From positions 1 to 35,361 of the forward strand of contig CAITIS010000009.1 of the NCBI GenBank assembly GCA_903892515.1: a stretch of 35,361 nt of DNA, in the 5' to 3' direction. The DNA is from an uncultured Planctomycetota bacterium (GTDB lineage Bacteria > Planctomycetota > Phycisphaerae > SM23-33). The translations under genes and the position numbers were made by a program. The notes beneath the pieces were generated by a model, which worked only from the letters and a program-made list of their open reading frames with translations, was not told the DNA's origin and ran no database searches. This document shows positions 5,392 through 35,186 of the stretch, piece after piece (the first letter of the stretch is position 1; every line of letters starts with the position of its first letter).

Positions 5392-5703
5392 ATGAACGAG
5401 CCATCGGCCAATGGATTACAGCCCTGTTTGGGTTGCGAATTCTTTCAGCGCGACGAGGCAGGGCGGATCAGCTTCCTCTGCGATCCTTTCACCAACGTGA
5501 AAGATACCTCGTGCCTGATGAAGTGGCAGCTTATCAAGATCAACCAAATGGTCGATGCCTACCAGACCACGCTTCGCTACTACGAAAAGCTCGCCCCCAT
5601 GCAGGACCGCCTGTTCAAGGCGATGGAACGCGAACTGGAAGACATGGACGAGACCGAGCGCTGGAAACAGCCTGAGGATGATGACGACGACGAGAAGCCA
5701 TAG
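5392..5703 (+). CDS. Small four-cysteine protein, function unknown
   Basis: A 103-aa protein that I do not recognise. Four cysteines (12, 15, 30, 41; C-X2-C, X14, C, X10, C) suggest a zinc or iron-sulfur site. The middle is helical (KINQMVDAYQTTLRYYEKLAPMQ and on) and the C-terminus is very acidic, ending in a run of Asp and Glu. The ATG at 5392 lacks a Shine-Dalgarno sequence but has TACAAT six nt upstream, so the mRNA may be leaderless. Its 3' end overlaps the likely rsmG start by about 23 nt, which suggests translational coupling with that 16S rRNA methyltransferase gene. Confidence 0.75.
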   Translation: MNEPSANGLQPCLGCEFFQRDEAGRISFLCDPFTNVKDTSCLMKWQLIKINQMVDAYQTTLRYYEKLAPMQDRLFKAMERELEDMDETERWKQPEDDDDDEKP

Positions 5704-6646
5704 CGGCGACTCCGACGCGCCCTCGGCCCATTTCCCCAGCGCCAGAACGTTCTGGTCTTGCTGTGGCCTGCCCGCCGACCGGCTCGACCAATTCATCACC
5801 CTCATCGAGCGATATCGCCAACTCATCAGCGACGGCAACCGCATCACCAGCCTGGTGGCCGAAGATTCCCTCGGGGACTTTGACACCAAGCACGTGTGCG
5901 ACAGTCTGGCCGTGCTGCGGGCGTTTCCGGGTTTGCTGGGGGCGCCATGGTCAGCCCGTGGTGTGGGCTGGCCATGCGACCAACGCTCAGGCATGGCCAG
6001 GCTAAACGACAGCCTGACCATGGCACCCGACCCAGAGCGTGCCGCGGCCAGCAGGGGTGCCGTGGCCGCGGTGTCCAGCGGCCAGGCGGACACGACCACA
6101 GCCGAGGGCGGCTGTGCCACGAAAGAAAAAAGCGAAACGCCGGCTCGTGAGACGCCGATGCGCGTGGCGGATCTGGGCAGTGGGGCGGGGCTGCCGGGGA
6201 TCGTGCTGGCGCTGGCCCTGCCGCAGCTTTCGCTGACGGCCATCGAGCCCAACCACAAGAAGGCCGAGTTTCTGGCCAGGGCGATGCGGGAATTGGGGCT
6301 GGCTGGCCGGGCTAGTGTGGTGACGAAACCGGGTCGGGAACTGGGGCGAGATTTGGCCTTTGCCGGCGAGTACGACGTGGTGCTGGCCCGGGCGGTGAGT
6401 TCAGCCGACAAACTCATCACCGAGTGCCGCCGCCTGGTCTCGCCGGGTGGGTGCATGATCTTCTACAAGACGCCCGCCGCCGTGCAGGCAGAACTTCCCC
6501 TCGCCCAGCGTGAGGCCAGGAAGCACAAACTGGAACTGACCGTAAGCGAGATCGTGGAACTGCCCGCCGATGCGGGGGCCAGGCAATTCATCTTGTTACG
6601 GAAGCCGGAATCGGGAAACGGAAATCGGGAATCGGGAAGCTGGTAG
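5681..6646 (+). CDS. rsmG: 16S rRNA (guanine-N7) methyltransferase RsmG with a repeat-derived insert
   Basis: RsmG methylates G527 of 16S rRNA (E. coli numbering) using S-adenosylmethionine. The N-terminal part (ERYRQLISDGNRITSLV, then HVCDSLAVLRAFPGLL) and the SAM motif (RVADLGSGAGLPGI, about 161-175), followed by AIEPNHKKAEFLARA and VVLARAVSSADKL, are typical. The family is usually 205-250 aa; this one is 321 aa. About 73 extra residues (87-159, nt 5939-6157) sit between the N-terminal helices and the SAM motif, exactly where most homologues run on directly. That insert is made of four dispersed hairpin repeats in an open frame. The last 13 residues are encoded by G-rich 7-mers that also supply the stop. 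The start is uncertain (ATG at 5678 or 5681, overlapping the previous gene). No frameshift is visible, but activity cannot be judged from sequence. Confidence 0.88.
   Translation: MTTTRSHSGDSDAPSAHFPSARTFWSCCGLPADRLDQFITLIERYRQLISDGNRITSLVAEDSLGDFDTKHVCDSLAVLRAFPGLLGAPWSARGVGWPCDQRSGMARLNDSLTMAPDPERAAASRGAVAAVSSGQADTTTAEGGCATKEKSETPARETPMRVADLGSGAGLPGIVLALALPQLSLTAIEPNHKKAEFLARAMRELGLAGRASVVTKPGRELGRDLAFAGEYDVVLARAVSSADKLITECRRLVSPGGCMIFYKTPAAVQAELPLAQREARKHKLELTVSEIVELPADAGARQFILLRKPESGNGNRESGSW
5939..6157. repeat. Hairpin-repeat cluster inserted in frame in rsmG
   Basis: About 219 bp, a multiple of three. It holds four hairpins: stem CATGGTCAGCCC with one wobble, loop GTGGTGT (5946-5976); stem CATGGCCAGGCT with one wobble, loop AAACGAC (5992-6022, followed by GCACCC); stem TGGCCGC, loop GGTGTCCA (6063-6084); stem CACAGCCG, loop AGGG (6097-6116). 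The third is found inverted at 30970-30993 and the fourth recurs at 19025, 19063, 19102, 23253 and 23379. Confidence 0.85.
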
Positions 6647-6803
6647 GGTCCGCAGGTTCGCGAGCGATGTTGCGAGCGGTTCTGTGGACGGGAGGAGATT
6701 CGGTGGGGCTCATCGCTTCGCTCTTCGGCCCACCCTACTGAAGCCGGAAGCCGTAATCGGGAATCGGGAAGCGGGAGTAGGGAATCGGTATTTGGGAATC
6801 GGG
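6609..6803. repeat. Degenerate GGGAATC-type 7-mers and a hairpin after rsmG
   Basis: GGGAATC/GGGAAGC units run through the end of rsmG (6609-6640) and again at 6756-6803. Between them, 6648-6689 is an imperfect inverted repeat beginning GTCCGCAGGTTC and ending GGTTCTGTGGAC, related to the hairpin at 31028-31071. No gene is seen between rsmG and argS. Confidence 0.7.
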
Positions 6804-6806
6804 TGC

Positions 6807-6861
6807 CACGGCTGCGGTGCTTGCAGCCGTGCGGACACACCTGCAAGACGCCGCAGGTGTG
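6807..6861. repeat. Two adjacent hairpins downstream of argS
   Basis: Stem CACGGCTGC, loop GGTGCTT (6807-6831) and stem CACACCTGC, loop AAGACGCC (6836-6861), both perfect. The pair is preceded by GGTGC and followed by GCACCCC, the flank shared with other hairpins in the window. Confidence 0.8.
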
Positions 6862-6870
6862 GCACCCCTT

Positions 6871-6896
6871 CTCCGACCTCTGGCCTCTGACCTCGG
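6871..6896. repeat. 7-bp tandem repeat at the argS 3' end
   Basis: Read on the argS strand, degenerate GAGGTCA/GAGGCCA 7-mers begin about 11 nt after the argS stop codon. The same units open the array at 35111-35174. Confidence 0.6.
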
Positions 6897-6906
6897 CCCT
6901 GCTTCT

Positions 6907-8637
6907 CTACATCTGCTCAATGGTCCGAATGCCCAGCAGCGACAGGCCCTTCTGCATGGTCCGGGCCGTCAGGGCGCACAGGGCCAGCCGGTTCGTCCGC
7001 GTGGGTTCGTCGGCCTGGATCACCGGGCAATTCTCATAGAAGCCCGTGAACGCCCCGGCAAGGTCGTACAGGTACGCGCACAGCAGATTGGGCAGGCATT
7101 CGCTGGCGACCGCCTGGATCGTCTCGGCGAATTGCAGCAGCTTTAAGCCCAGGGCCCGTTCCTCTGGTTGGGCCAGTTCGACGGCGCGACCGAAGAAGCT
7201 TTCCCGCGCCACGCCGGCCTTGCGGAAGATGCTGCTGATGCGGGCGTAGGCGTACTGCATGTACGGGGCCGTGTTGCCCTCCATCGCCAGCATCTTTTCA
7301 AAGCTAAAGACATAGTCGCTGTTGCGATTCTGCGACAAGTCAGCGTACTTCACCGCCCCGATGCCGACGATCTGCGCCACCTCATCGGCCTCGGCGGTCA
7401 GTTCGGGGTTCTTTGCCAGCACGATGGCCCGGGCCCGCTTCTGCGCTTCATCCAGCAGGTCGATCAGCTTGACCGTGCCGCCGGTGCGCGTGCGGAACTT
7501 GCCGCCGCCCTCTGCCAGCATTACGCCGAAAGGAACATGCTCCAGACGCACGTCCTCTGGCACCATGCCGGCCTGTCGCGCCGCGGCAAAGACCATGCGG
7601 AAATGCAGCGCCTGCCCGCCATCTGTCAGGTATAGCACGCGCTGGGCCTTCAAGGTGCCCACGCGGTAGCGTATGGCCGCCAGGTCGGTCGTGGCGTACA
7701 AGTAGCCGCCATCGGATTTCTGCACGATGACCGGCGTGATGTCGCCATCCTTGTCGGCGAATTCCGGCAGGAAGACGCACTTCGCGCCCTGCGATTCCTT
7801 CAGCAGCCCGGCCTTGTCCAGGTCGGCGACCACGTTGGCCAGATCGTCGTTGTAGGCTGACTCGCCGTGGACATCACTGTCCGCGAGCAGCACGCCCAGG
7901 GTCTTGTATACGGCCCGGCAATGTTCCATCGATTCATCCAGAAACATTTCCCAGGCCCGACGACTGTCAGGATTGCCGCCCTGCAGGGCGACTACTTCGG
8001 CCCGTGCCGCATCGGCAAAGGCCGGATCCGCATCAAAGAGCTGCTTGGCCTGGCGGTAAAAATCCTCCAGGTCGGCGATGTGGATGCCGCCCGACTGCCA
8101 GTCGGGGCGCTGCAGCTTAAGGTATGCCAGCAGCATGCCGAACTGCGTGCCCCAGTCGCCCACATGGTTTTGCCGGATGACCTTGTGGCCGACGAATCCC
8201 AGCGTTCGCGCCAAAGCATCGCCGATGATTGTCGAACGCAGGTGCCCGACGTGCATTTCCTTGGCCAGATTGGGGGCGCTGTAATCGACAACGACTGTCT
8301 GCGGCTGCACCGGCCGGTCCACGCCCAGGTGCTCGTCGGCCGCCATGGCTGAAAGCTGCTGCTGGAGCCAGGCGCGGTCCAGGCGAATGTTGATGAAGCC
8401 CGGGCCGGCGATGTCGAGCTTTTCGGCGACACCGGCCAGGTTGGCGGTGGCCAGAAGTTGCTCAGCCAATTTTCGCGGACTGGTGCCGGCGGACTTGGCG
8501 GCGGGCATGACGCCGTTGGCCTGGTAGTCGCCGAAGCCGGCTCTGGCGGAAGGCGCAACAATGGCCGGGACGCTTCGGCCGGCGAGCTTGGACAACGGCT
8601 CGGCCAGCCGCTCTTCGATATAGCGACGGATGTTCAT
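6907..8637 (-). CDS. argS: Arginyl-tRNA synthetase
   Basis: A 576-aa class I aminoacyl-tRNA synthetase that charges tRNA-Arg, in the cytoplasm. The N-terminal additional domain (about 1-100) is followed by the HIGH-type motif HVGHLRS (129-135). QNHVGDWGTQFGMLLAYL and the segment KFRTRTGGTVKLIDLLDEA are hallmarks of bacterial ArgRS, which often lacks a canonical KMSKS. The C-terminal anticodon-binding helical domain ends in LSLLGIRTIEQM. Length is normal. Its ATG overlaps the TGA of the upstream Lys/Ala-rich protein gene (ATGA), so the two are probably translationally coupled in the rsfS-argS operon. Confidence 0.98.
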   Translation of the reverse strand: MNIRRYIEERLAEPLSKLAGRSVPAIVAPSARAGFGDYQANGVMPAAKSAGTSPRKLAEQLLATANLAGVAEKLDIAGPGFINIRLDRAWLQQQLSAMAADEHLGVDRPVQPQTVVVDYSAPNLAKEMHVGHLRSTIIGDALARTLGFVGHKVIRQNHVGDWGTQFGMLLAYLKLQRPDWQSGGIHIADLEDFYRQAKQLFDADPAFADAARAEVVALQGGNPDSRRAWEMFLDESMEHCRAVYKTLGVLLADSDVHGESAYNDDLANVVADLDKAGLLKESQGAKCVFLPEFADKDGDITPVIVQKSDGGYLYATTDLAAIRYRVGTLKAQRVLYLTDGGQALHFRMVFAAARQAGMVPEDVRLEHVPFGVMLAEGGGKFRTRTGGTVKLIDLLDEAQKRARAIVLAKNPELTAEADEVAQIVGIGAVKYADLSQNRNSDYVFSFEKMLAMEGNTAPYMQYAYARISSIFRKAGVARESFFGRAVELAQPEERALGLKLLQFAETIQAVASECLPNLLCAYLYDLAGAFTGFYENCPVIQADEPTRTNRLALCALTARTMQKGLSLLGIRTIEQM

Positions 8638-10157: not shown

Positions 10158-10268
10158 GGGAAGACGGGAATCGGGAAGACGGGAATCGGGAAGACGGGAA
10201 TCGGGAAGACGGGAATCGGGAAGACGGGAATCGGGAAGACGGGAATCGGGAAGACGGGAATCGGGAAG
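10158..10268. repeat. Seven perfect 15-bp tandem repeats (GGGAAGACGGGAATC)
   Basis: Seven perfect head-to-tail copies (10158-10262) plus a partial one. Each unit carries two GGG runs, so the array can form G-quadruplexes on the plus strand. It lies about 20 bp upstream of the rpsU promoter. Being a multiple of three, it gives an open frame repeating RRESG, but there is no sign this is translated. Confidence 0.9.
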
Positions 10269-10318
10269 CGGGGACGCGCGGAAGAACCGGGACGCAGATC
10301 GGTGAGTCAGGGTGTCCG

Positions 10319-18984: not shown

Positions 18985-19148
18985 TTTCCCGGGCGAAAGG
19001 GCGTCTCTACGGGGACGGAAAGACCACAGCCGAGGGCGGCTGTGCTACGGGGACGGAACGACCACAGCCGAGGGCGGCTGTGCCACGGAGACGGTAGACA
19101 CCACAGCCGAGGGTGGCTGTGCCACGCGATTCTCGTCGCCCAGTGCGC
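18985..19148. repeat. Three copies of the CACAGCCG hairpin
   Basis: Stem CACAGCCG, loop AGGG, at 19025-19044, 19063-19082 and 19102-19121 (the last with one wobble pair), each within a similar context ending in GACGG or GCCACG. They are all in the same orientation, spaced 38-39 bp apart. No gene is seen between the glycosylase and der. Confidence 0.85.
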
Positions 19149-19237: not shown

Positions 19238-19397
19238 TGAATACTACTAACGAGGTGGCCGCTTGGTTCATTTCGGATGGGCAGTCTTGGGAAAGTTTTG
19301 GAGCGTGAGCGGAATCTGGAGAGTTCCACAAAGCGAACGGAGTCTGGAGAGCGTCACAATGCGAACGGCATCTCTCGCTTGGATTGCCGCCGGGGTC

Positions 19398-19588
19398 ATG
19401 CAGCCCGAAGGGCTGAGAGACTACAGCCTGGGGCAACGCCCCAGGTAAAGGCGCGCCACATGGCCAAGCCCTGCAAGGGCGTGAGAGGCAAGGCTATCCT
19501 GCCCTTGCAGGGCTAACACCGTCGTATCCGTCCAGGGCGACGCTTCGCTCTGTCATGGGCTAGACTGTTCAAGCCCTTTGGGCTTAAG
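19398..19588 (-). repeat. Composite dispersed repeat, copy A
   Basis: About 190 bp, reverse orientation relative to copies at 22949-23150 and 28861-28982. Modules in order (minus strand): hairpin around AAGCCCAAAGGGCTT, a degenerate middle, a 13-bp inverted repeat GCCCTGCAAGGGC with a 27-nt loop, stem CCTGGGGC with loop GTT, and AGCCCTTCGGGCT. One frame reads QPEGLRDYSLGQRPR in all copies, but there is no evidence that it is translated. It lies upstream of der. Confidence 0.85.
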
Positions 19589-21076: not shown

Positions 21077-21246
21077 CAGGGATCGTTGCCGCAAACGGCG
21101 ATATTAGATATCTGATATTCGATATTGGGAACAACGGGTCGCTCCCGACAGGAGCAGACGCGTCCTGATATCTAATATCAAATACCCAATATGCAACGTC
21201 GCAAATACAACCCGTCTTATCCCCTGTATCCCATGCATCCCTGCTA
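21077..21246. repeat. GATAT-rich palindromic 3'-end element between der and the phosphatase gene
   Basis: Three GATATT/GATATC units (21100-21126), a GC-rich centre, then CCTGATATCTAATATC (21166 on) in the inverse sense. Next to it, the minus strand reads GCAGGGATGCATGGGATACA (21246 down) just after the phosphatase gene. The der stop codon itself begins the motif TAGCAGGGAT. Related elements lie at 23424, 25853 and 31793. Confidence 0.75.
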
Positions 21247-21260
21247 ATTACGCGTCTGTG

Positions 21261-22775
21261 CTATTCCCTGGCCTTGCCGCCACATTCGTCGATGACCTTG
21301 CCTTCGGGCGTGATGGCCTTCATGGTCCAGGTGTCGCCGTCGAGGTCAAACAGGCAGTAGTGGAGCTTGCTGGAATAGGCCTTGCTGTAGGGGTTGACGC
21401 TCAGGTCGGATGACAGGAACGGCACGGTGGGGGCCCCGGCCCCGCCGGTGGTGATCTCGATCAGCCCGCCCGGCAGTTCCGACCGCTCGTAGTCGTGGTC
21501 GTGCCCGACGATGAAGGCGGTGACCTTGTACTTCTGCATCAAAGGCTCGATGGTTTCACGCGCCCATTTGGCGGTGTCGGACAGGCCGTCCTTGGCTTCG
21601 CGCTGGCCATGGCCGCCGCTGGACCAGGCCGGGTAATGCGAAAACACAAAGATGAACTTGGCCTTGCCGGCGCTCTGGAACTGCGCCTCGAGCCACTTGG
21701 CGTTGTCGGAATCCTTGGAGAAGTTCCGCTCGCCGTTGATGCCGACGAAGAAGCCCGGGCCGATCTGCTGGGACCAGTTCTCGTCCTGGCCGCTGTCGCT
21801 GGGCGTGTAGAACAACTGGTGCACGATCTCCGAGCCGTGCTCGTGATTGCCCATGACGGCGTAGATGGGCATGTGCGAAACCGCCGGCTGGATGGGGCCG
21901 AAGAACTCCGGATCCCATGTCCAGTCCTGCAGGCCGTCCTCGACGAAGTCGCCGTTGAAGAAGAGCACCTGCGCGGTGACCTTGCCCAGGGCGGCCGCCA
22001 CAAGCTTCCAGTCGCGCAGCACGGAACGGCAATCGCCGGCGGCCACGAAGGTCAGCTTGTCCGCCGCCACGGGCGGTTGAGGCGTGAGCTTGATCCGCAC
22101 GCTCTTGCTCTGGCACTGTGCAAGGAGTTCGTACTCGCCCTCGCCGGCGGGGCGCTTGACGCGCAGCCGGTGGTACATGCCCGTTGATTCCGGCGTGACG
22201 GGCTTGCCGACGCAGACCACGCTCACCTTGGCCGGCATGTTCGTCCGGCACGTGACCGTGAAATAGTCGTTGCCGAAGGCGCCCAGAATCGGGCCGGTCT
22301 GGATCTTCAGATCGTCGGGCGACAGGCCGACCAGGTCGCACTTCGCCTCGACCTGGCGTTCGGCCGCCTTGGCCTTGGCGGGAATCTCCAGCGTCAGGGT
22401 CAGTTCGTTGGCGCCCTTTTTGGCAAAGCTGGCCGGGATGCCGGCGTAGCTCTTGTACCGCATGCCCTTCAAGGCCGGGGCGATTTCCTGGCCGTTGAGT
22501 TGGATCTGAAGATGCGCGCCCGGCGCCAGCGCGTGCGTCAGCGTAAAGCTGGCAAAGGCGGCCGGGTCGTCGATGCTAAAGGTGGTCTTGGCCCGCAGCG
22601 TGGCTGTTCCTGCCTCGGGCACGTTGGCCGAGTTGGCCCAGGTCTTGCCCTCATCGACACTGTACTGCCAGACCGCCCCGGCCAGCAGGTTCTTGCTGGC
22701 GGCCAAGCTCACCGAACAGGACAGCAGCAGACTCAACGCCGCGGTTACGAACAGACGCATCGGTTGTTTACGCAT
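21261..22775 (-). CDS. Secreted calcineurin-like metallophosphatase, paralogue 1
   Basis: A 504-aa exported protein. It has a signal peptide (MRLFVTAALSLLLSCSVSLAA, probable cut near 25-26; the LLSC could also be a lipobox), two beta-rich parts (about 27-150 and 160-235) and a metallophosphatase domain from about 240. Metal ligands are visible: GDCRS (247-251), NGDFVEDG (274-281), GNHEH (309-313), SHYPAW (379-384) and GHDHDYERS (424-432). The last block and the fibronectin-like part before the catalytic domain recall purple acid phosphatases. AAGGAAA precedes the ATG. A neighbour at 23507 is a close paralogue in tandem. The substrate is unknown; an extracytoplasmic phosphomonoesterase is the simplest idea. 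Confidence 0.9.
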   Translation of the reverse strand: MRKQPMRLFVTAALSLLLSCSVSLAASKNLLAGAVWQYSVDEGKTWANSANVPEAGTATLRAKTTFSIDDPAAFASFTLTHALAPGAHLQIQLNGQEIAPALKGMRYKSYAGIPASFAKKGANELTLTLEIPAKAKAAERQVEAKCDLVGLSPDDLKIQTGPILGAFGNDYFTVTCRTNMPAKVSVVCVGKPVTPESTGMYHRLRVKRPAGEGEYELLAQCQSKSVRIKLTPQPPVAADKLTFVAAGDCRSVLRDWKLVAAALGKVTAQVLFFNGDFVEDGLQDWTWDPEFFGPIQPAVSHMPIYAVMGNHEHGSEIVHQLFYTPSDSGQDENWSQQIGPGFFVGINGERNFSKDSDNAKWLEAQFQSAGKAKFIFVFSHYPAWSSGGHGQREAKDGLSDTAKWARETIEPLMQKYKVTAFIVGHDHDYERSELPGGLIEITTGGAGAPTVPFLSSDLSVNPYSKAYSSKLHYCLFDLDGDTWTMKAITPEGKVIDECGGKARE

Positions 22776-22948: not shown

Positions 22949-23150
22949 CTTAAGCCCGAAGGGCTTGAATGGTCAAGCTCAGGGCAGAGCGAAACGCCGC
23001 TCTGGGTTAGCAGGGGTACGACGGTGTTAGCCCTGCAAGGGCGGGATAGGCCTTGCCTCTCGCGCCCTTGCAGGGCTTGGCTGCCTGGTGCAGCGTCACC
23101 TGGGGCGTTGCCCCAGGCTGTAGTCTCTCAACCCTTCGGGCTGCGTAGCC
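22949..23150 (+). repeat. Composite dispersed repeat, copy B
   Basis: About 200 bp, the most complete copy. In order: hairpin AAGCCCGAAGGGCTT, a CAGAGCG/CGCTCTG hairpin, the 13-bp inverted repeat GCCCTGCAAGGGC, stem CCTGGGGC with loop GTT, and a final TTCG hairpin. It aligns along its length with copy A (inverted, 19398-19588) and over its second half with copy C (28861-28982). Confidence 0.85.
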
Positions 23151-23252
23151 ACACCGTCCAAAGAGTTGTTACTGGAACCGGTTTCTTGTCCGTGGTACGC
23201 CCGCCCTCGGGCGTGAAACCACGTGAGAAGGCATCGATATGGCCGCAAAACC

Positions 23253-23398
23253 CACAGCCGAGGGCGGCTGTGCCACGAAGACAGGAAGACGCAACGCCGC
23301 GTGTATGGGCCTCCGCGTGGAAGGTTCTTACATGGTCACGCGAACAGCGTGACCATGCCACCCATCGCGACCAAAGGCCACAGCCGAGGGCGGCTGTG
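23253..23398. repeat. Hairpin cluster between the two phosphatase genes
   Basis: Stem CACAGCCG with loop AGGG at 23253-23272 and 23379-23398, flanking at 23331-23357 a copy of the hairpin from 12-38 (stem CATGGTCACGC, loop GAACA), identical including the CCACCC flank. Confidence 0.85.
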
Positions 23399-23506: not shown

Positions 23507-25015
23507 CTACTCCCTGGCCTTGCCCCCGCACTCGTCGATGACCTTGCCTTCGGGCGTGATGGCCTGCATCGTCCAGGTGTCGCCTTGGATGTCGAAGAGG
23601 CAGTAGTGGAGTTTGCTGGAGTAGATCTTGCTGTACGGGTTGACGTTCAGGTCGGAGGACAGGAACGGCACGGTGGGGGCGCCCGCTCCGGCGCTGGTGA
23701 TCTGGAGCAGGTCCGGCAGCTCCGATCGCTCGTAGTCGTGGTCGTGCCCGACGATGAAGGCCGAGGCCTTGTACTTCTGCAGCAGCGGAATTACGACTTC
23801 GCGGGACCACTTGGCTTCATCGGACAGGCCCTCCTGGGTCCAGCGCTGCCCATGGCCGCCGCTGGACCAGCCCGGGAAGTGCGACCACACGAATAGGAAC
23901 TTGGACTTCTGCGCCTTTTGCAGATCCTCTTCGAGCCACTTGGCGTTGGCGGAATTCGGGGAAAAGTCCTGCTCCCCGTCGATGCCGATCAGGTACGCGG
24001 GCCCGGCCTGCTGGCTCCAGTTGGCATTGATGCCATCCTCGCTGGGCGTGTAGAAGAGCGCCTGCATGAGCCCGGCCTTGTGCTCGTGGTTGCCCATGAT
24101 GGGGTAGATGGGCAGGTGGGAAAGGGCCGGCTGGACGATGGAGAAGAACTCCGCGTCCCACAGGCAATCCTGCTGGCCGTCGGTGACGAAGTCGCCGTTG
24201 AAGACCATGAACTGGGCATCGGCCTTGGCCAGGGCGGTCGCCACGATCTTCCAGTCCCGAACCACGCTGCGCGAGTCGCCGGTGGCGATGAACCTGAGCT
24301 TGTCGGGCGCCATGGGCCCTGGCGGGGTAAGCTTGATTCGCAGCGTCTTGGCCTGGCATTGGAGAAGCAGTTCGTACTCGCCCTCGCCCGCTGGTCTCTG
24401 GACGCGCAGGCGATGGTACAGGCCCGTTGATTCCGGGGCGGCGGGCTTGCCGGCGCAGAGGATGGTGGCCTTGGCGGGAACGTTGGTGCGCAGGGCTAGT
24501 GTGAAATACTCGGCATCGAAGGCGCCGTAAATTGGCCCGGTCTGAATCTTCAGATCCTCCGGCGTCAGGCCGATGAGGTCGCACTTGGCTTCGAACTGGC
24601 GATCGATGGGCTTGGCCTTTGCGGGGATGTCCAGCGTCAGGACCAGCTCATTGGCGCCCTTCCTGGCGAAGGTGGCGGGGACGCCGGCGTAGCTCTTAAA
24701 GACCATGTTCTTAAGGGGCGGCTGAATCGCCTGACCGTTGAGGGATGCCTGCAGAGACTTGTTGGGCGTCTGTGCAGGGATCAGCGTCAGGCTGGCGAAG
24801 CCGGCTGGGTCGTCGAGGTTGAAACTGGTCTTGACTTGCAGCTTGGCGGCGCCCTCCGTGGGCACGTTGGCGGAGTTGCCCCAGGTCTGGCCGTCGTCCA
24901 CGCTGTATTGCCAGATCGCCCCGGCCAGCAGGTTCTTGCTGGCGGCCCGCGCCTGCGGGCAGGTCAGCAGCAGGATCAGCGCGGCGGCGATCAAACGCAT
25001 CGAGTGTTTACGCAT
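23507..25015 (-). CDS. Secreted calcineurin-like metallophosphatase, paralogue 2
   Basis: A 502-aa protein, alignable end to end with the product of 21261-22775, with by eye about two thirds of residues the same. Signal peptide MRLIAAALILLLTCPQARAA. Metal ligand blocks are kept: GDSRS, NGDFVTDG, GNHEH, SHFPGW and GHDHDYERS. Differences include GDSR for GDCR and several changed residues around the active-site loops (LLQALFYTP-like region, SHFPGWSSGGHG), so the two could differ in substrate. AAGGAA lies upstream of the ATG. It is divergent from pdxJ, with overlapping -35 boxes. The tandem copies share flanks as well as coding sequence. Confidence 0.9.
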   Translation of the reverse strand: MRKHSMRLIAAALILLLTCPQARAASKNLLAGAIWQYSVDDGQTWGNSANVPTEGAAKLQVKTSFNLDDPAGFASLTLIPAQTPNKSLQASLNGQAIQPPLKNMVFKSYAGVPATFARKGANELVLTLDIPAKAKPIDRQFEAKCDLIGLTPEDLKIQTGPIYGAFDAEYFTLALRTNVPAKATILCAGKPAAPESTGLYHRLRVQRPAGEGEYELLLQCQAKTLRIKLTPPGPMAPDKLRFIATGDSRSVVRDWKIVATALAKADAQFMVFNGDFVTDGQQDCLWDAEFFSIVQPALSHLPIYPIMGNHEHKAGLMQALFYTPSEDGINANWSQQAGPAYLIGIDGEQDFSPNSANAKWLEEDLQKAQKSKFLFVWSHFPGWSSGGHGQRWTQEGLSDEAKWSREVVIPLLQKYKASAFIVGHDHDYERSELPDLLQITSAGAGAPTVPFLSSDLNVNPYSKIYSSKLHYCLFDIQGDTWTMQAITPEGKVIDECGGKARE

Positions 25016-25852: not shown

Positions 25853-25992
25853 GCAGGGATGCAGGAGATGCAGGGGATACGGGATTTGTTGTGGATGGAT
25901 ATTAGATATTAGATATCAGGAGAACGGGCTCTTCTGAACCGAACCTGCTGTTCCTGATATCGAGTATCTGATATCTGATATCGAATATCGCG
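25853..25992. repeat. GATAT-rich palindromic element after pdxJ
   Basis: Directly after the pdxJ TGA comes GCAGGGATGCAGGAGATG and GGGGATACGGG, then three GATATT/GATATC units (25903-25919), a 45-bp centre, and CCTGATATC followed by three more units in the inverse sense (25955-25989). It is the clearest full copy of the element. Confidence 0.8.
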
Positions 25993-26986: not shown

Positions 26987-27035
26987 GAGGTCGTAGGTCA
27001 TAGGTCGTAGGTCATAGGTCGTAGGGCGTAGGGCG
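26987..27035. repeat. 7-bp tandem repeat array after the DUF4846 gene
   Basis: About seven head-to-tail copies of a 7-mer, GTAGGTC/ATAGGTC/GTAGGGC, starting right after the stop codon. Related arrays follow at 28191, 29072, 31110 and 35111. Confidence 0.85.
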
Positions 27036-27097: not shown

Positions 27098-28195
27098 ATG
27101 CAGGGTCCGACGAAGTGGAAGCCGGATTGGGAAGCCACCAAACGCCACCTCAGTAGCTGGTGGGACCGCAAAGGCCTGGTCGTGAACATCGCATCGCCGG
27201 CACGCAAGCCGCGCGAGAACTTCCCGCCGATGCCCAAACCGGCCGATCCGCAGGCGTTCCACATGGACCCGCATTACCAGGTTGGCGACGCGCTGCATCA
27301 GCTTAGCCGCGAGGCACTCCTGGGCGATAACTTCCCGATGTTCCTGCCCTTCTGCGGCCCGGGCAGCCTGGGAACGTTCCTGGGCGCCACGCCGCACTTC
27401 TCCTTCGAGACGGTGTGGTACGAGCCGTGCATCGGCGATCCCGAAAGCTACGGGCCCATCCGCCGGTTCGACCCGCGCAACAATCCCTGGTGGGACGCCC
27501 ACCTGGCCAAGATCGACGAGGCGAAAAAATACGCCGCCGGCCGGTTCATTATCGGCATGCCCGACCTCATCGAGAACCTGGATGTCCTGGCGGCCTTACG
27601 CGGCAGCGAGCATGTGCTGATGGACCTGATCGAACGGCCGGCGTGGGTGCACAAGAGCTTGGAAGAGATCAACGAGGCGTTCTTCGCGGCCTTTGATGCC
27701 CTCGATGACCTCATCGGCGTCGATGGCGGAAACGGTTTTTGCTTCGGGCTCTGGGGCCCTGGCCGGACCGCCAAGGTGCAATGCGACCTGTGCTGCATGC
27801 TCTCGCCGGGCATGTTCCGTGAATTCGTCATGCCCAGCCTGTCGGCGCAGTGCCAGTGGCTGGACTATTCGATGTACCACCTCGACGGCGAGACGGCATT
27901 GCAGCATCTGGACGCCCTGCTGGAAATTGAGGCCCTCGACGCAATTGAGTGGACGCCGATGGGCGCCTCCGTTCGCGACCCGTCCCGGCCACGAGGCGGC
28001 TCGCCGCACTGGTACGACATGTACCGGCGGATCAAGCGGGCCGGCAAGAGTGTGCAGGTCATCGGCGTGGAAGAAGCTGAGGTGATCCCGCTGATCGAGG
28101 CCGTGGGGCCCGAAGGGCTGTACATCTTCACCTCCCTCGACGCCCCGGCCGCCGAAAAGCTGGCGGAGAAGCTCAAGCAGTACCAGACGGCGTAG
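27098..28195 (+). CDS. URO-D/methyltransferase-fold protein
   Basis: A 365-aa protein of the uroporphyrinogen decarboxylase-like superfamily, which also includes corrinoid-dependent methyltransferases. It is not HemE: the N-terminal Arg-rich substrate motif of HemE is missing and the start reads KWKPDWEATKRHLSSWWDRKGL. The barrel signatures SYGPIRRFDPRNNPWW, FIIGMPDLIENLDVLAALRG, SPGMFREFVMPSLSAQC, YSMYHLDGETALQHLDALL and AIEWTPMGA fit proteins common in planctomycetes and anaerobes. No H-X-C zinc motif of MtaA/MtbA is seen; HLDG stands in that place. GGAGA precedes the ATG at 27098 by 8 nt. The stop codon TAG is itself part of a 7-bp repeat array. Function is unknown. Confidence 0.8.
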   Translation: MQGPTKWKPDWEATKRHLSSWWDRKGLVVNIASPARKPRENFPPMPKPADPQAFHMDPHYQVGDALHQLSREALLGDNFPMFLPFCGPGSLGTFLGATPHFSFETVWYEPCIGDPESYGPIRRFDPRNNPWWDAHLAKIDEAKKYAAGRFIIGMPDLIENLDVLAALRGSEHVLMDLIERPAWVHKSLEEINEAFFAAFDALDDLIGVDGGNGFCFGLWGPGRTAKVQCDLCCMLSPGMFREFVMPSLSAQCQWLDYSMYHLDGETALQHLDALLEIEALDAIEWTPMGASVRDPSRPRGGSPHWYDMYRRIKRAGKSVQVIGVEEAEVIPLIEAVGPEGLYIFTSLDAPAAEKLAEKLKQYQTA

Positions 28196-28218
28196 GGCGT
28201 AGGGCGTAGGTCGTAGGG
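28191..28218. repeat. 7-bp tandem repeat array overlapping a stop codon
   Basis: Four copies of CGTAGGG/CGTAGGT; the stop codon of the URO-D-like gene is the TAG inside the first unit, so the array extends into the coding end. Confidence 0.8.
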
Positions 28219-28268
28219 AACCACGCAGGGCGTGAAACTGGTTGCACGCGTGCCGGCGGCTTGGAGTC

Positions 28269-28820: not shown

Positions 28821-28860
28821 AATTCCACTTCCTCTGAGTTCAGAGGCCTTTGCATCGATT

Positions 28861-28982
28861 TAGCTCTGCAAGGGCGGGATAGCTTTGCCTCTCGCGCCCT
28901 TGCAGGGCTTGGACGTGTCAGGCATCTTAACCTGGGGCGTTGCCCCAGGCTGTAGTCTCTCAGCCCTTCGGGCTGCATGGCC
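28861..28982 (+). repeat. Composite dispersed repeat, copy C (partial)
   Basis: Contains the GCAAGGGC/GCCCTTGC inverted repeat, stem CCTGGGGC with loop GTT and the AGCCCTTCGGGCT hairpin, matching the second half of copy B; the first two modules are absent. It begins about 40 nt after the acetyltransferase gene, in a 302-bp gap without genes. Confidence 0.8.
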
Positions 28983-29071
28983 AAGCTGTACAGTGGGCTC
29001 TCATCGAGGTTGAATCATGCAAGAGCCGGAGTCCTCCGCGGCTCTGCGGCCCGTCTTTGTCTCTGTGTTTT

Positions 29072-29117
29072 CCCTACGCCCTACGCCCTACGCCCTACGC
29101 CCTATGACCTATGACCT
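29072..29117. repeat. 7-bp tandem repeat array at the flavoprotein gene 3' end
   Basis: Six to seven copies of CCTACGC/CCTATGA (GTAGGGC/ATAGGTC on the minus strand), starting about 6 nt past the stop codon of the minus-strand gene. Confidence 0.8.
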
Positions 29118-30835: not shown

Positions 30836-31142
30836 TTTCCGTACCCATTTCCGTTGTCTAACGCGGATTGCCTATCCATGAATTTATCGTTCCGCTCCCT
30901 GTACCGTCTTCACTGCACCGAGCCAGGTAAGGCGGGCAGGCTTGCCCGCTCTTCTGGCGAGGTTCTCACGTGGCCGCTGGACTCCGCGGCCACGGCACCC
31001 GGGAGATGGTCTTGTCCGGGCGATCCCGTCCGCAGAACCCTTCGCAAGAAGACGCGAAGGAACCTGCGGACCCTACTGTCTTCGCGGCCGAGGGCGGCTG
31101 TGCCACGCGCCCTACGCCCTACGACCTACGACCTCGCCTCTC
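30836..31142. repeat. Repeat-filled gap without genes
   Basis: Holds stem GTGGCCGC with loop TGGACTCC, followed by GGCACCC (30970-30993, the inverse of the third hairpin in rsmG); a two-part hairpin with outer stem GTCCGCAG, inner stem CCTTCGC and loop AAGAAGAC (31028-31071); a half CACAGCCG element (about 31086-31104); and a GTAGGKC 7-mer array (31110-31134) next to the 3' end of the minus-strand lipoprotein gene. Confidence 0.8.
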
Positions 31143-31727: not shown

Positions 31728-31792
31728 GAGGCGAAATGATAGCACCGGCGTCGGGCGGCGGCAACGGGCTTCCGAGCGGGGGCAACGGCGGG

Positions 31793-31895
31793 ATTAGATA
31801 TCAGGAAGAAGATATCAGATATTCGATATCAGGGAATACCAGCACGGGGCTTGGCGACGTCTTTCCTAATATCGAATATCCAATATCTAATCCCG
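31793..31895. repeat. GATAT-rich palindromic element after skp
   Basis: Read on the minus strand from the skp stop codon: CGGGATTAGATATTGG, two more GATATT units, AGG, a centre of about 40 bp, then CCTGATATC and three inverse units. It has the same plan as the elements after pdxJ and der. Confidence 0.8.
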
Positions 31896-31907
31896 CTGTT
31901 TCGGGGC

Positions 31908-35110: not shown

Positions 35111-35174
35111 GGAGGTCAGAGGGCATAGGTCGTAGGGCATAGGTCGTAGGTCGTAGGTCGTAGGTCGTAGGGCG
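35111..35174. repeat. 7-bp tandem repeat array upstream of bamA
   Basis: About nine units of GTAGGTC/ATAGGTC/GTAGGGC, preceded by GAGGTCAGAGG of the argS type. No stop codon of a neighbouring gene is in view on this side. Confidence 0.85.
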
Positions 35175-35186
35175 CGTGGCACAGCA

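Follow-up and report, generated by a model that had tools for sequence, protein, structure and literature searches.

The rsmG gene discussed here raises the question of how a run of hairpins came to lie inside the reading frame of a conserved RNA-modifying enzyme and what becomes of the protein that it interrupts. We addressed this question in a 35,361-nucleotide stretch of DNA (the window) and in the genome to which it belongs, a draft assembly of 159 contigs and 4.89 Mb that is 91% complete. Our answer, which we hold with considerable confidence, is that the insert consists of three stacked families of REP hairpins that were likely placed by RAYT-type transposases and that its predicted translation product is a disordered loop of 70 residues that leaves the enzyme fold intact.

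RsmG carries 70 residues that the aligned homologues lack

The interrupted gene belongs to the RsmG family by both profile and fold. Its product matches the GidB profile PF02527 with 100.4 bits (E = 1e-28, Pfam), and the top Foldseek matches to its predicted structure are RsmG structures, the best PDB entry being 3g8b (TM score of 0.82 by target length). Its TIGR00138 score of 94.7 bits falls slightly below the curated cutoff of 99.5 (NCBIfam). In a protein search, the window protein (P0001, 322 amino acids [aa]) was recorded as one identical sequence on 7 contigs; the next match among those listed was P0002 (240 aa), which is 69% identical to P0001 in a 17-row alignment. This alignment comprised P0001 and 16 homologues, that is, 17 of the 356 matched proteins, 120 of which were listed. 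The closest named RsmG records come from Planctomycetales MAGs.

In P0002, the residues FPGLL are joined directly to ELPQRVADLG, whereas 70 residues separate FPGLL from ETPMRVADLG in P0001 (Table 1). The methyltransferase part of P0001 aligns to P0002 without gaps of its own. An earlier note on this DNA had placed a 219-bp insertion between positions 5939 and 6157; its start agrees with the alignment of homologues, whereas its length and end do not, the insert being 210 nt long and ending nine nucleotides sooner. Translation bore out that the insert length is divisible by three and that the frame stays open through rsmG, as the same note had stated, and translation and alignment confirmed that the SAM motif behind the insert is intact.

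The note had further proposed an alignment with RsmG from close relatives, reasoning that relatives that shared a conserved insert and lacked the repeats elsewhere would make it an ordinary domain. We looked for such relatives and found none. The insert is missing from all 16 aligned homologues, and in five genomes of the same family (G008, G022, G028, G032, and G034), the two halves of RsmG are adjacent with no insert between them. These same five genomes contain no copies of family C, one of the repeats described below. The comparison of RsmG halves covered 80 genomes, including the source genome, of which 36 matched and 44 had no match at an E value of ≤1e-5.

An open frame is weak evidence by itself, since none of the six frames of the B and C consensus contains a stop codon, and four of the six frames are open across the whole insert. 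The length, a multiple of three, is stronger evidence, as is the reuse of a single frame in other genes.

Table 1. Coordinates and properties of rsmG, its insert, and related repeats and genes
Feature	Position in window	Strand	Description
rsmG (16S rRNA G527 methyltransferase)	5678-6646	+	322 codons plus stop, with in-frame interruption
In-frame insert	5939-6148	+	210 nt, 70 codons, residues 88-157; bounds from alignment with homologues
REP family a, inverted pair	5940-6028		Arms 5940-5977 and 5991-6028, 82% complementary, 13 nt apart
Stretch between a pair and B	6029-6054	+	Outside families a, B, and C
REP family B	6055-6086	+	32-nt consensus; C-GTGG opens its minus strand
REP family C	6094-6121	-	GTGG, then 8-bp hairpin on minus strand
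Insert tail	6122-6148	+	9 codons, reads KEKSETPAR; outside families a, B, and C
Predicted peptide with tryptic ends			LNDSLTMAPDPER; inside insert residues 88-157
C-terminal tail of RsmG	6599-6643	+	Coded by GGGAATC/GGGAAGC-type repeat (family D7); absent from P0002
Three C copies outside rsmG	19025-19121	-	19025 and 19063 exact; 19102 with one mismatch
Two C copies outside rsmG	23253-23398	-	23253-23272 and 23379-23398, both exact
B copy outside rsmG	30971-31000	-	97% identity over 30 nt
C copy outside rsmG	31083-31102	-	Two mismatches
Y1 transposase gene, C109			Two B copies before, two inverted B copies after
Y1 transposase gene, C21			Three C copies before, one inverted C copy after
Y1 transposase gene, C159			Single a unit before, inverted a unit after

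The insert is a stack of three dispersed hairpin families

The insert is built from an inverted pair of family a, one unit of family B, and one unit of family C, all of them dispersed REP hairpins. Unit a is a hairpin of ~38 nt that occurs in rsmG as an inverted pair. The B consensus is GGGTGCCGTGGCCGCGGCGTCCAGCGGCCACG, and on the minus strand, C reads C-GTGG-CACAGCCG-CCCT-CGGCTGTG. With respect to the GT[AG]G tag, GTGG lies directly 5' of the C hairpin and forms the base of the stem in B, and unit a has ATGG at this position. The RNA strand of the insert folds 4.2 standard deviations below the mean of 200 shuffles (z = -4.16). The four hairpins that had been described earlier are thus real, except that two of them are the arms of a single inverted pair.

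All three families recur in the genome. The insert DNA gave 82 genome matches at an E value of ≤0.001, a figure in which the insert itself is included and most a pairs count once per strand (40 of 475 candidates were scored); from the same table, the a pair occupies 27 further genomic places. There are 44 copies of B within the genome stretches examined, including the one in rsmG. Allowing for at most two mismatches, the 20-nt core of C gave 353 strand matches in the whole genome (187 + 166), where a copy midway between two orientations could count twice; its reversed control gave none. These are therefore short imperfect palindromes with many dispersed copies, as is typical of REPs. The recurrence of two insert units elsewhere in the window, which the earlier note had pointed out, was confirmed by six further C copies and one further B copy. 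B and C lie side by side at several sites: the rsmG block aligns with blocks in an Hsp70 gene, HemD (two), a further site on C1, and a radical-SAM gene, the Hsp70 block being included twice in the alignment.

The window holds other repeats as well. Heptamer arrays of the GGTCGTA/GGTCATA/GGGCGTA type occur in both orientations (26988-27035, 28187-28234, 29077-29117, 31108-31134, and 35113-35185), and AT-rich heptamer-like arrays (GATATTA/GATATCT/GATATTC) lie at 21102-21192, 25893-25989, and 31792-31900, in places as inverted pairs. Long inverted and direct repeats of up to 123 nt, 84 to 94% alike and containing AGCCCTGCAAGGGC palindromes, were found at 19394-19516, 23014-23160, and 28860-28992. 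Two neighboring open reading frames (ORFs), at 21261-22775 and 23507-25015, are phosphoesterase-like by eye and similar to each other, their DNA being 76% and 88% identical in two aligned parts.

Beyond the source genome, the C core was detected in a minority of relatives (34 of the 198 genomes surveyed, source genome included). Genomes of the same class carry 121 (G119), 163 (G127), 103 (G157), and 61 (G056) copies, and one of the same order carries 49 (G035). Within the family, the core is scarce, with 18 copies in G006, 5 in G007, and 1 in each of three others. This distribution, with many copies in relatives at the class and order level and few within the family, could reflect horizontal spread or repeated loss.

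Each family has a Y1/HUH gene flanked by inverted copies

The Y1_Tnp profile has 15 matches in the genome, 13 of them above the cutoff. One gene flanked by inverted copies was found for each of the three families: C109 for B, C21 for C, and C159 for a (Table 1). All three proteins contain an HUH-type [DE]HVH motif and a Y..NP-type motif. Their family match to Y1_Tnp is weak, since the hmmscan scores of 24.3 (C109), 22.3 (C21), and 21.3 (C159) bits lie around the cutoff of 23; the genome profile scan gave 25.2, 23.4, and 21.6 bits, respectively, such that the C159 protein is below the cutoff in both scans and the C21 protein in one of the two. The occurrence of a Y1/HUH gene between inverted copies for each family indicates that these are REP/RAYT-type elements, the proteins having the motifs and inverted REP flanks of RAYTs along with this weak profile match. 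Given the flanking arrangement and published REP/RAYT work, the C109, C21, and C159 proteins probably move the repeats. Two further Y1 transposase genes, L125 (on C10) and L129 (on C102), have GTAG-tagged hairpins on both sides (GTAGGGCGGGCACTGCCCGCC and GTAGAGCCGCTGGACGGCGCGGCT); with these, at least five REP/RAYT pairs may be present in the genome.

Five other conserved genes carry units in frame

Profile and PDB comparisons identified five further conserved genes with in-frame units of the B and C families. The Hsp70 protein has 54 residues between parts that are 5 residues apart in DnaK. An NfnB/GltD-like reductase has 32 residues, versus 9 in the PDB chain, in the segment linking its Fe-S and FAD domains. 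CobA-HemD contains two B+C blocks, and its second HemD stretch begins after the units at profile position 115; the radical-SAM protein has two C units where the zinc-ribbon profile is reported as two stretches. For these two proteins, we deduced where the first profile stretch lies from the fact that two are reported. A copper-type P-type ATPase has two C units, at which 93 residues replace 7 and 87 replace 39 in the PDB protein; the piece between its two lengthened stretches is a weak match. Palindromic inserts thus occur in frame within RsmG and five other conserved proteins.

RsmG, Hsp70, the reductase, CobA-HemD, and the radical-SAM protein all use the frame TTAEGGCAT, with one changed letter in one unit of the radical-SAM protein (ATAEGGCAT) and of the reductase (STAEGGCAT), and the units of the P-type ATPase read PQPRAAVP, a second frame.

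Several other candidates were left out of the five. A U32 peptidase and L262 have Pfam matches on only one side of the units, L224 and L234 have no Pfam match, and in a DsbD-like ORF, C lies behind the domain. An M56 peptidase (L102) is a weaker case with the minus-strand frame VAQPPSAV, and L265 scores weakly and is likely beside two minus-strand genes. In a histidinol dehydrogenase (L078) and a GH2 protein (L077), C is near the N-terminal end, upstream of the domains, and was not counted as intragenic. Among the a-pair loci inspected, none was placed inside a conserved gene other than rsmG: at L005, L012, L019, and L026, a long ORF over the repeat has no Pfam match, and in RsgA (L006) and IMP dehydrogenase (L025), the repeat lies upstream of the conserved part.

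One reading frame recurs among genic copies

To place family C with respect to genes, a codon model trained on 16 genes of the window (8,270 codons) was applied to exact C copies in the loci examined. The survey covered 111 distinct copies, comprising 100 exact places (C1 to part of C57) and 11 chosen by other criteria. Most copies lie outside genes: 11 of the first 100 are intragenic, in 8 ORFs, and 15 of all 111 lie in ORFs with a coding signal on both sides, 4 of these 15 coming from the 11 chosen by other criteria. The 16 training genes by themselves account for 24,850 of the 35,361 nt of the window (70%). Since genes thus make up at least 70% of the window and C is intragenic in only 11 of 100 cases, most genic insertions appear to have been lost, unless insertion avoids genes.

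Six of the eight ORFs read the repeat in the frame TAEGGCAT, one reads PQPRAAVP, and one weak case (L265) uses a third frame. The binomial bound for six of eight ORFs falling in any one of six frames is 0.0026. Of these six, two lack any Pfam match and a third has one on a single side. The preference is not absolute, as the P-type ATPase and the weak L265 case show. The favored frame is the nearest to neutral in hydropathy (-0.16).

Twelve further sites have coding sequence close by on both sides and a stop or frame change between, and at every one of them the left ORF stops short of the repeat. Ten of these pairs were scanned against Pfam, with L233 and L246 (the C21 transposase locus) set aside. 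In nine pairs, the two members matched different families, which implies that the repeats there are intergenic; in the tenth (L265), one member matched a family and the other matched none. No clear frame-breaking C copy within a gene was therefore found among the ten candidates scanned. When ten relatives were searched with the favored-frame peptide, 8 genomes yielded 23 weak matches in total (E = 0.14 to 1), and none of the ORFs at eight of these loci was recognized by eye as a conserved gene.

RsmG is predicted to accommodate the insert as a disordered loop

An AlphaFold2 model built on the 17-row alignment has a mean pLDDT of 78.6, with 183 of 322 residues at ≥90, and residues 90 to 139 and 141 to 145 are below 50. 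In the model, the insert lies between a helix (residues 68 to 82) and the first core strand (residues 161 to 166). RsmG is thus predicted to fold with the insert as a floppy, disordered 70-residue loop and with the enzyme fold intact. The codon score per codon is -0.125 in the insert, versus 0.304 and 0.278 in the flanks. Such non-coding-like codons fit a recent arrival and would also be expected of untranslated DNA.

A second repeat type extends RsmG at its C terminus, since P0002 ends before the GGGAATC/GGGAAGC-type repeat that codes for the final residues of P0001 (ESGNGNRESGSW). The repeat is found again at 6745-6802, and 15-nt units of it form an array at 10158-10274.

Origin and fate of the insert

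We propose that RAYT-type transposases of the genome itself would seed REP hairpins across it, including in rsmG. Insertions into genes would mostly be purged, and copies in a tolerated frame and in a linker or loop would survive, as the low share of C copies inside ORFs and the recurring frame suggest. The rsmG mRNA would then be translated straight through the insert. The earlier note, pointing to Rickettsia palindromic elements as comparable, had suggested that repeats enter genes as they spread and that loops tolerate them; this is supported by the genome-wide REPs with their transposase partners, the 16 insert-free homologues, the predicted disorder between the helical part and the first core strand, and the five other genes.

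The strongest rival, which we consider unlikely while taking it seriously, is that the insert disables RsmG, the allele being a non-functional one in which a recent REP stack kept the frame by chance. A TIGR00138 score just below the cutoff would fit this explanation, as would a C-terminal tail that is also repeat derived, and three repeat families at one site could mean relaxed constraint; shortly after the insertion, a functionless gene would look no different. However, the frame is preserved across 210 nt, coding bias is retained in both flanks, and the methyltransferase part shows no gaps of its own relative to P0002. Hsp70 and other conserved genes also contain these units in frame. The stable fold and the long inverted pair might instead suggest that the insert is removed after transcription, either by RNase III-type cutting at the hairpins or by ribosome bypass, as the earlier note had offered as alternatives. 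Neither process is needed, and we judge both very unlikely, since they leave both the multiple of three and the recurring frame unexplained: bypass requires neither of the two features that the insert has, an open frame and a length divisible by three, and cutting without ligation would break the message. Moreover, no clear case of a frame-breaking C copy within a gene appeared among the ten candidates scanned, and an Rfam scan of positions 5400 to 7200 gave no intron family, its two matches being sub-threshold and non-intron.

That the assembly joined an intergenic repeat array into rsmG is slightly less credible still, even though the assembly is a draft and high-copy repeats could mislead an assembler. 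Both junctions are in frame, other genes offer parallel in-frame cases, and the presence of the same protein on 7 contigs argues against a one-off error, though shared reads are possible. Least plausible of all is an ordinary lineage-specific domain that converged on palindromic sequence. The insert does lie at a domain boundary, where insertions are common, but this reading is contradicted by the dozens to hundreds of further copies of its DNA, most of them intergenic and together occupying both strands, and none of the 16 aligned homologues shares the insert.

Tolerance of three stacked REP families as a translated loop therefore remains our preferred reading. A bolder version of it, which we regard as improbable, is that the REPs serve as a portable peptide linker: three RAYT systems would seed near-neutral, flexible GAVAAASSGHA..TTAEGGCAT modules, and the repeats would have been selected to be harmless when translated. 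If so, transposition would keep adding disordered loops to proteins such as RsmG, Hsp70, and CobA-HemD. In either form, the locus would offer a precise case in which mobile hairpins lengthen a conserved RNA-modifying enzyme, and the genome that carries it also contains the presumed transposases and hundreds of related copies. It also makes a long-standing question testable, namely, whether in-frame palindromic inserts are merely tolerated or whether selection acts on the repeat's own frames.

Comparison with known palindromic elements

Insertions of this kind are already known, as the genic REPs in PMC3733652 and the Rickettsia elements in PMC10969869 indicate. According to the former paper, GTAG-type REPs of Opitutus terrae, Thauera, and others are mostly intergenic and also occur within ORFs as singles, dimers, and clusters; genic clusters can code for 43 to 82 residues, with flexible linkers or loops suggested to be tolerant, and REP families exist in Planctomycetes. 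The units described here resemble these short, tagged palindromes, mostly intergenic with some in ORFs. They differ from what that paper describes in that three families are stacked in one gene, each with a Y1 transposase partner, in a planctomycete-like host and with one frame dominant among the copies surveyed.

PMC10969869 and PMC3733652 describe Rickettsia palindromic elements as dispersed palindromes in frame within unrelated conserved genes, a description that the present units share. However, the nearest named RsmG records are from Planctomycetales MAGs and not from Rickettsia, and the units here are ~30 to 40 nt long and have RAYT partners, whereas the rickettsial repeats classed in PMC3733652 are of the CGTC type, for which Table 1 of that paper lists no transposase association. 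The units also resemble REP/RAYT (TnpA-REP) systems as presented in PMC6006769: GT[AG]G stands at the foot of the hairpin in C and arguably in B, the proteins combine Y1 HUH and Y..NP-type motifs, and the transposase genes are flanked by inverted REPs. Unlike the largely intergenic REPs of that account, those examined here also lie in genes, and family a has ATGG for the tag. This case was not recognized in the literature that we searched on genic palindromic elements and planctomycete REPs, a search mostly outside subscription journals. As far as that search extends, what is new are the families themselves, their planctomycete-like host, the stacking of three families in one gene, the transposase partner of each, and the measured frame preference.
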